This document shows, piece by piece, positions 14,154 to 39,375 of a stretch of 64,000 bases of DNA. The notes under the pieces are model-generated. The model made no database searches. It was not told the origin of the DNA and was given only the letters and a program-made list of their open reading frames with translations. Location: assembly GCF_029338395.1 (NCBI RefSeq), contig NZ_CP119809.1, positions 2,356,001 to 2,420,000 of the forward strand, read 5' to 3'. The position numbers and the translations under genes were made by a program. Numbering within the stretch: the stretch's first letter is position 1; the number at the start of each line of letters is the position of its first letter. Source of the stretch: Halorussus caseinilyticus (lineage in GTDB: Archaea; Halobacteriota; Halobacteria; Halobacteriales; Haladaptataceae).

Positions 14154-15038
14154 TCACTTCTCTTTGAGGTTCAGGCAGCCGAGTGCGGCGAACATCGCTT
14201 CTTCGGTTCGCACGACCTCGCTACCTTGGTTCGGAACCGCGTTCAGCCAGAGGTCAAACCGGCCGGGTGCGCCCGATTCGACTCCGGACTCCGCGTCCGC
14301 CTCGTCCTCCCCGACTGGCCACGTATCGGCCAGCGAGTCGATGGGGAGGTCGAGCATCTCCGGCAGGCCTCGACCCGGTGAACCGAACGCGACGGTCATG
14401 CCGTCGCGTTCGGTCCGGCCGACCAGTTCGGTCAACCGCCGGGTGGTCAACTCGACCCCGTGGCGGGACGTTGCGATTCGAACGCCCGCGTCGTCGCGGT
14501 CGAGGGCCGCCGGAAGGTCCGTGCGCGTCACCGACAAACCCGAGAGGGGTTCGTCTACGAGTTTCGCACGGACCGGACTTCGCGAAGAGATCCTGACGGT
14601 TACGCGCTTCCCCTCGCCGACCTCCATTTCTGGCGGCACGACGAGCGAAATCGGGTGTTGCAGTCCGCAATTGACCCGAACGCGCCCTTCAGGTCCGACC
14701 TCGGTCACGATTCCCTGTCTTAACGACCCCGAACCCTCGGATTCGGAGCCGGTCAGTGAGGGGGCGCGGAGCGGCGGTAGGACGCCCGCGTACTCCAGTT
14801 CGTCCCGCTTGCCGAATACCTCCTTTCGGAGGTAGGGCGGCGTCGCGGCGTACTCCAACACGGTGCTTACGAACCCGCCACCCCATCTCCGCTCGCCGTC
14901 GGGGTCGGGAAAGACCCCGATGCGGTCGGCCCGGAACACCGTCGCCGCGCGAGCGACGTAACCGATTTTTCGAGTCGCCTCGCGCTTGTCTTCGGCTTCC
15001 CGGACGAGGGATGACGGAACGAGTACGCTGAAGGTCAT
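14154..15038 (-). CDS. SPOUT-family RNA methyltransferase (DUF171, putative rRNA uridine-N3 methyltransferase)
   Basis: This 294-residue protein heads the ribosomal operon, a position conserved in archaea. It starts MTFSVLVPSSLVREAEDKRE and contains IGYVARAATVFRADRIGVFP and a C-terminal IATSRHGVELTTRRL segment. I place it in the DUF171 branch of the knotted SPOUT methyltransferases by overall similarity; members are annotated as putative rRNA uridine-N3 methyltransferases. The exact target base is not established here. Confidence 0.8.
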   Translation of the reverse strand: MTFSVLVPSSLVREAEDKREATRKIGYVARAATVFRADRIGVFPDPDGERRWGGGFVSTVLEYAATPPYLRKEVFGKRDELEYAGVLPPLRAPSLTGSESEGSGSLRQGIVTEVGPEGRVRVNCGLQHPISLVVPPEMEVGEGKRVTVRISSRSPVRAKLVDEPLSGLSVTRTDLPAALDRDDAGVRIATSRHGVELTTRRLTELVGRTERDGMTVAFGSPGRGLPEMLDLPIDSLADTWPVGEDEADAESGVESGAPGRFDLWLNAVPNQGSEVVRTEEAMFAALGCLNLKEK

Positions 15039-15480: not shown

Positions 15481-15645
15481 TTCGGACGCTAACTTCTTCC
15501 GGAGTCACGACTCCGTGTACGCTCGTCTATTTCTCGGCGGACACTTCCGTACCGGCGAGTCCGTCGTCCGGCTAGAAAGTCTCCCGTCCGACCCGAGAGT
15601 CCGCTGTCTGTTTCGTCGGAGCTAGCTACTGCCGACTCCTATCAG

Positions 15646-15765
15646 GACCGCACCGCCCCGCACTGCACCGCGACAGCCTCGAACCTCCCCATCCTCGTCG
15701 GCCGCATCCGCGGCCGACTTCGCGCGTTGGGCGCGACCACGAGGGTCGCGCCCGCACGCGCCGAG
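15646..15765. repeat. Intergenic repeat family 1, copy 1
   Basis: The copy has CCGCACCG-type repeats, then CCTCCCC (15684-15690), then the hairpin GTCGGCCGC-ATCC-GCGGCCGAC (15697-15718), then a second hairpin GGGCGCGACC/GGTCGCGCCC (15729-15753) followed by GCACGCGCCG. The same module order is seen at 39241-39375 and, expanded, at 20315-20640. The 15481-15894 gap holds nothing else I can identify except a TATA-like GGTTAAGT at 15861-15868. Confidence 0.6.
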
Positions 15766-19996: not shown

Positions 19997-20314
19997 GTCT
20001 CTCGGGTCGAACGTCTCAATCGCGGTGCTTGGGTCTTTCGTCTGCGGTGGTTCGCCGAGGGTTCAGTAGCGGTGTGTCTCGTTTTGAACAGAATTTTGTT
20101 TTCTTAAAATGGTTAAATATTTCTTAAGCATAACTATAAAATTGTATCCGGTTGCGGAGACGGGTCATCAGCGCACCGGGCCGACTCGAACCGGCGAAGA
20201 ACGCCACCGCGACCACGCCGCACGGTGACGCAGGACGACGAGGGACCGCTTCGACGTGAACGGCGACGTGGAACGACGACGAGAACGGGAGCGACTGCTT
20301 GAGCCAATCAGACT

Positions 20315-20398
20315 GCACCGTACCGCCACAGCACCGCACCGTACCGCCACAGCACCGCACCGTACCGCCACAGCACCGCACCGTACCGCCACAGCACC
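20315..20398. repeat. Four tandem 21-bp repeats
   Basis: The unit begins GCACCGTACCGCC and is repeated four times without interruption or spacer, then decays into GCACTGCCACC copies up to about 20425. It lies in a 690-base gap (19997-20690) and is the expanded version of the CCGCACCG tract that starts repeat family 1. Confidence 0.9.
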
Positions 20399-20436
20399 GC
20401 ACTGCCACCGCACTGCCACCGCACCGCGCCCCCGTT

Positions 20437-20640
20437 CCTCCCCGCGTGCGTCTGCGCTCGCGAACGCGAGCGCAGACGCGGCGCGTCCCGGGGTCTGACA
20501 CTCCGGGCGCGTCCTGCACAAAGACTCCGGGCGCGTCCTGCACAAAGGTTCAAGTACCGAGACGCGACGAACCCTGCCCGGACGCCTCGCGCGGTTCTGG
20601 GCGCGGGCGGCGCGCGGGCACTGCCCGCGCGCCGCGGGAC
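20437..20640. repeat. Intergenic repeat family 1, copy 2 (expanded)
   Basis: The copy has CCTCCCC (20437-20443), then the 15-bp stem GCGTCTGCGCTCGCG/AA/CGCGAGCGCAGACGC (20448-20479), then a 24-bp unit duplicated in tandem (20500-20547), then a CGCGCGGTTCTGGGCGCG tract and a 14-bp stem (20607-20635). The module order matches copies at 15646 and 39241, with extra material between the two hairpins. Confidence 0.6.
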
Positions 20641-26524: not shown

Positions 26525-26575
26525 GCGGGCGCGGGTCGCGCCGTGCGCGACCCGCGCACCGCCGAGAGACCTTCT
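26525..26575. repeat. Intergenic repeat family 1, partial copy 3
   Basis: Only the second hairpin module is present: GCGGGCGCG leads into the stem GCGGGTCGCG/CGCGACCCGC (26531-26555), followed by GCACCGCCGAG. It sits in the 626-base malE-malK divergent gap. Confidence 0.45.
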
Positions 26576-39134: not shown

Positions 39135-39240
39135 GCCGTAGGAGTGGTCGCTCGCGGCGAAAAAGGCCGCGGTTGTTGGCGGCCGCGACTGCAATCACAC
39201 TGCGAACCGCAGTGTCGCCGACTCCGATGAAGACCGCGAC

Positions 39241-39375
39241 CGCACCGAGACCGCACAGCACCGCCACCGCAACCGCGGACCTCACGCCTCCCCACCCTCG
39301 CGGCCGCATTCGCGGCCGCGTCCCTCGCGCGAATGGGCGCGGCCACTTGCGGGCCGCGCCCGCACGCGCCGGGCC
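39241..39375. repeat. Intergenic repeat family 1, copy 4
   Basis: CCGCACCG-like repeats lead to CCTCCCC (39287-39293), the hairpin CGCGGCCGC-ATTC-GCGGCCGCG (39299-39320), CGCGCG, and the hairpin GGGCGCGGCC/GGCCGCGCCC (39335-39361) followed by GCACGCGCCG. It is the closest relative of the copy at 15646. It fills much of the 578-base larC-cdc48 gap; the rest (39376-39712) shows no gene. Confidence 0.65.

Follow-up and report, generated by a model that had tools for sequence, protein, structure and literature searches.

What is the GC-rich element with two hairpins at positions 15646-15765 of the window (the whole 64,000-nucleotide stretch of Halorussus caseinilyticus DNA analysed here), and does its structure act as RNA or as DNA? 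A preliminary description, made from the sequence alone, had listed up to four copies and knew of no described function. We searched the whole source genome (G000; 4.39 Mb, five contigs) by blastn and found that the element is a member of a dispersed repeat family, detected in this way at 41 places. A covariance model of the right half of the element (R1), trained on 20 copies from this genome, gave 144 matches at E<=1 in a first run; a second run, with 145 candidates scored, gave 130 at E<=0.001. These counts are approximate: no search scored more than 150 candidates, and a few low-scoring matches either lie antisense to the palindrome or repeat a copy where contig ends overlap. Model scores were repeated near both ends of contigs C1 and C2 (overlaps of about 37 and 44 kb), which suggests circular replicons with overlapping ends; a few copies were therefore counted twice. 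In the literature searched, which covered few subscription journals, we found neither a description of a Halorussus repeat family nor a function for it.

The family unit is ~130-260 bp long and occurs as types I and II, with a fixed frame that includes CCTCCCCAACC and a GCRCGCGCC end. Read from left to right, the unit opens with a left box, GCTAGCTWCAGGCTTGAACCAATCA or a variant of it, and continues with a C-rich run built of CCGCACC-like units and with CCTCACGCCTCCCCAACC. A variable hairpin section follows, then CCTCGCGCG, the right hairpin and GCRCGCGCCGG. Both edges are sharp, the left one being marked by a GCTAGC-type box in 62 of the 103 copies read. The hairpin section is modular, with one GC-rich stem in some copies and several stems or short repeats in others, and in the consensus fold GCGCG pairs with CGCGC outside the right hairpin. 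The palindrome is near-terminal at the right end, and the left end carries a weak small hairpin only; terminal inverted repeats are absent from monomers and present in dimers. The copies in the window are listed in Table 1.

Table 1. Copies of the repeat in the window and their parts (positions in the window).
Feature	Position	Strand	Basis
Type I, complete copy (144 bp): left box, C-rich run, CCTCCCC, hairpin 1, hairpin 2, right end	15620..15763	+	sequence; R1 match 15716-15765, 65.7 bits
Left box AGCTAGCTACTGCCGACTCCTATCAGGA, first copy	15620..15647	+	box type common to 62/103 copies
Hairpin 1, first copy: GTCGGCCGC / ATCC / GCGGCCGAC	15697..15718	+	sequence; consensus fold
Hairpin 2, first copy: GGGCGCGACC / ACGAG / GGTCGCGCCC	15729..15753	+	sequence; consensus fold; covariation
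Hairpin 2 outer extension, first copy: GCGCG with CGCGC	15722-15726 with 15757-15761	+	sequence; consensus fold; covariation
Type I, second complete copy, variant left box without GCTAGC	39217..39371, left edge approximate	+	R1 match 39321-39373, 77.1 bits
Hairpin 1, second copy: CGCGGCCGC / ATTC / GCGGCCGCG	39299..39320	+	sequence
Hairpin 2, second copy: GGGCGCGGCC / ACTTGCG / GGCCGCGCCC	39335..39361	+	sequence
Type II (subtype): left box, C-rich run, CCTCCCC, one long hairpin, end GGCGCGTCC	20290..20488, edges approximate	+	sequence
Type II long hairpin: GCGTCTGCGCTCGCG / AA / CGCGAGCGCAGACGC	20448-20479	+	sequence

The order of parts given in the preliminary description (CCGCACC runs, CCTCCCC, hairpin, CGCGCG, GGGCGCG hairpin, GCACGCGCC) was found at 15646-15765, at 39241-39375 and in dozens of other copies in G000. 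These two places are full members and the only full type I copies in the window (15620-15763 and about 39217-39371), and they begin further left than had been proposed, with a GCTAGCTWC... box at 15620 or a variant at about 39217. The third place, 20315-20640, turned out to be a subtype in which CCTCCCC, preceded by the left box and the C-rich run, is followed by a single long hairpin; it ends at about 20488, and the rest up to 20640 is not part of it. The same type II arrangement was seen at two further places in G000. The fourth place, 26525-26575, had been taken for a partial copy and is not a member: it is a simple hairpin, the flanking frame is missing and R1 gave no match; the GC-rich hairpin there, GCGCGGGTCGCG / CGCGACCCGCGC at 26529-26557, is a separate one outside the family. 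We also noticed that in the copies at C1:2736267-, 2520733-, 2291321+ and 1179772- of G000 another repeat, ...GGGCGGCCCCTTTCRGTCCACCC, replaces the left box and the C-rich run, which suggests a fusion with a second repeat family.

The arms of the right stem differ among copies yet keep pairing, as had been noted at the outset, and the description as one repeat family with compensating arms was right. In 100 matches from G000, 96.7% of the cells were paired, seven of the ten pairs had changed on both sides, and 87 double-changed cells were counted against 28 in shuffles, no shuffle out of 500 scoring as high. Other Halorussus genomes supplied 55 distinct rows; there 96.5% of the cells were paired, with 53 double-changed cells against 15 in shuffles. 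Fitting to the structure biases both alignments towards it, and each includes two antisense matches. In an RNA, G.U pairs should be tolerated on one strand. Mispairs were few (13 G.T and 17 A.C in total), and G.T was not commoner than A.C among them, with 9 and 9 in G000 and 4 and 8 in the other genomes, which indicates pairing at the level of DNA within the limits of such small numbers. It seems, from these alignments, that pairing is kept in DNA and not as RNA.

The preliminary description had gone further and suggested that RNA or DNA structure is selected. The RNA half of this statement was not supported, given the absence of wobble preference, the random orientation described below and the lack of an Rfam match. 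Selection is not established either, because template switching could also keep the arms complementary. PMC8794818 and PMC8604942 report that template switching creates and maintains hairpins and inverts their spacers, and that correction by this route can keep arms complementary without selection. The family resembles what is described there in that its arms are identical in complement; the process was reported as a mutational one in other organisms, and for Halorussus it is only suggested. With antisense matches removed, two loop pairs occurred in both orientations; these 4 loops, where shuffled loops would give 0.07, are no more than suggestive of loop inversion. Template-switch maintenance of the stems is compatible with the data rather than demonstrated by them.

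We examined how far the family extends. A covariance-model search of haloarchaeal genomes, a check of the kind proposed with the first description, gave R1 matches in 17 of 18 Halorussus genomes, with 4-130 copies each at E<=0.001 (G000, 130; G001, 112; G007, 105; G002, 99) and none in G008. The counts outside G000 are lower bounds because R1 was trained on G000. None of 10 genomes from other genera of the same family had a match, and in the rest of the order weak matches were seen in 3 of about 265 genomes. The family is found almost only in the genus Halorussus, and with 130 matches in G000 against none in the 10 sister-genus genomes, chance is excluded. The haloarchaeal matches to a strict pattern were in Halorussus litoreus, halobius, amylolyticus and salinisoli and in 'halophilic archaeon LT46'; its other matches were in scattered bacteria and were taken as chance. 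No match was seen in plasmid records, and one strict pattern had no exact counterpart in viral contigs. Within G000, C1 and C2 carry 36-37 copies per Mb, and C3-C5 (482 kb) carry none where about 17 would be expected, which fits spreading that has stopped or is confined to certain replicons. The GC content of sampled C3-C5 stretches was 0.55-0.64, that of C1 and C2 about 0.66.

Orthologous sites were then compared between species. In the LarC-Cdc48 interval the copy is of type I in G000, type II-like in G006 and degenerate in G003; G014 and G015 retain remnants, and none is visible in the others. Inspection showed a hairpin common to G003 and G006 there, with a double change from C-G to T-A. 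Site S3 spans about 7870-8385 of L229 (about 2724870-2725385 of genome C1). Near 7970 of L229 six species, G000, G004, G006, G007, G015 and G017, carry the element with differing right stems; five of these fold clearly better than shuffles, and that of G007 does so only weakly (z -1.4 against mononucleotide shuffles). The hairpins have been lost here in G009, G003 and G014 keep fragments, and no recognisable copy was seen in G005, G008, G013 and G016. The two sites together indicate that copies can be ancient and passed on by descent, and that their stems, mostly still self-complementary, change more quickly than the frame; this turnover could alternatively come from exchange with copies elsewhere in the genome. 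No recent insertion marked by a clean empty site and target duplication was found; the species compared are too distant for this. An empty site was sought at 15.3-15.9 kb in G015, where the intergenic sequence was too diverged to align.

Taken together, the element probably belongs to a Halorussus-specific set of non-coding dispersed DNA repeats (types I and II) that spread through intergenic DNA in the past and whose hairpins act as DNA. The spread would have occurred by copying or transposition, since a long multi-part unit would hardly arise independently at 130 sites. Copy sites are partly shared across species and partly reduced to fragments or missing. The hairpins may form as a cruciform or as single-strand hairpins, and their arms may be kept complementary by template-switch correction, by selection for DNA structure, or by both. 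On this reading it is best taken as a non-autonomous REP/MITE-like family, for which we infer mobility, an enzyme and a function.

Could the copies instead be functional DNA hairpins on the main replicons, organising the chromosome or binding a protein, with pairing kept by selection? There is a precedent in bacterial BIMEs, to which gyrase or IHF is known to bind. We looked at the genomic context of the G000 copies using genes predicted by a simple purpose-written codon model. All 79 copies tested were intergenic, in kinds of intergenic region roughly as in the background, and their orientation to the two flanking genes was random (22, 20, 19 and 18 over the four combinations). Spacing was random as well (22 close pairs against 20.5 expected), strand use on C1 was nearly even (71:54), and neither replication polarity nor regular spacing was found. 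Such an arrangement argues against leader, UTR, terminator and polarity signals. Tandem repeats were not enriched beside the copies (0.64 per kb against 0.66 in other intergenic DNA). Random spacing and nearly even strand use speak against an organising site, as do the frequent loss of sites between species, the Halorussus genomes with 0 and with 4 copies, and a stem sequence that is not conserved at an orthologous site. We consider this explanation unlikely, even though pairing is strongly retained, copies are kept at an orthologous site in several species, they are orientation-neutral and they lie only on the chromosome-like C1 and C2. It is also unlikely that the stems are actively rewritten as inverted repeats inside the conserved frame, every site retaining a DNA hairpin whose sequence changes; this would come about through a dedicated hairpin-processing enzyme or because a genus-specific protein recognises the shape of the hairpin and not its sequence.

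An active system of the IS200/IS605 type, either REP with RAYT or PATE, in which a Y1 transposase moves single-stranded DNA, is very unlikely. No PF01797 (Y1_Tnp) match was found in G000, G001 or G002, which have 130, 112 and 99 copies, while controls were positive; copy number does not track the presence of Y1, though G007, with 105 copies, has some Y1 transposases. The family thus has no linked transposase, and a Y1-driven REP or PATE was rejected as the current mechanism in G000, where Y1 activity is largely refuted and an extinct enzyme is possible. What recalls such systems is the near-terminal palindrome, the intergenic position and the absence of a visible target duplication, as in PATEs (PMC3119063), as well as inverted dimers in some Halorussus genomes, as REPs form (PMC3733652).

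In its many short intergenic palindromic copies, its monomers and inverted dimers, its limited taxonomic range and its arms that differ but pair, the family is like bacterial REP, REPIN and BIME sequences. It differs from them in being archaeal, in its longer unit with a left box, a C-rich run and at least one hairpin, and in the absence of a Y1/RAYT gene from G000. Nor was the GTAG or CGTC tag recognised: copies inspected by eye had no constant tag at the base of the palindrome, and CGTC precedes the right hairpin in many copies, with stems and tails unlike those of described CGTC families (PMC3733652). PATEs of Haloquadratum are likewise haloarchaeal and non-coding, with near-terminal palindromes and heterogeneous sequence, but they are related to IS605-type ends (PMC3119063), whereas the Halorussus family has not been linked to any and G000 lacks Y1. 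The SMR elements of Haloquadratum are also short and non-coding, with an unknown mobiliser; SMR-A is about 110 bp, has inverted terminal repeats, is highly alike among copies and targets other mobile elements (PMC3119063), while the Halorussus family is diverse and genus-wide.

A structured RNA, be it a small RNA, a UTR element or a terminator, is the least probable reading: it was suggested in the preliminary description and would agree with conserved hairpins that show compensatory change, but orientation to genes is random, on which ground a terminator, leader or UTR element was rejected, the sequence to the left of the box varies among copies, so that no common promoter is visible, wobble pairs are not preferred, and the element has no Rfam match at the gathering score, which also disposes of a known RNA family.

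Dispersed palindromes in large families are known mainly from bacteria, where a Y1 enzyme often accompanies them. In Halorussus such a family is archaeal and genus-wide, is present in a genome that lacks Y1 and shows stem turnover at an orthologous site; it offers a natural test of whether selection or template switching keeps DNA hairpins, and the repeats could supply markers for Halorussus genomes.

GC skew flips its sign at the left box, where ~180 bp upstream are G-rich and the element is C-rich. A decayed inverted partner would fit this, because several Halorussus genomes (G001, G002, G005, G010 and H. litoreus) have inverted dimers with boxes facing each other a few tens of bp apart. G000 has no inverted dimers closer than 800 bp. 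In a post hoc look at G000, all six pairs less than 1.3 kb apart pointed outward, with left boxes facing and small genes between them (C1:147550-148445, 593446-594442, 1179772-1180987, 1500080-1501177 and 3432772-3433834; C2:2108-3350); wider pairs showed no orientation bias. The genes between the close pairs look like ordinary small genes and were rejected as cargo of a composite element. Elsewhere in the window, a predicted RNA methyltransferase ORF (14154-15038) contains, at 14593-14692 on the minus strand, a 73.7-bit Rfam match to an archaeal L4 ribosomal-protein leader.
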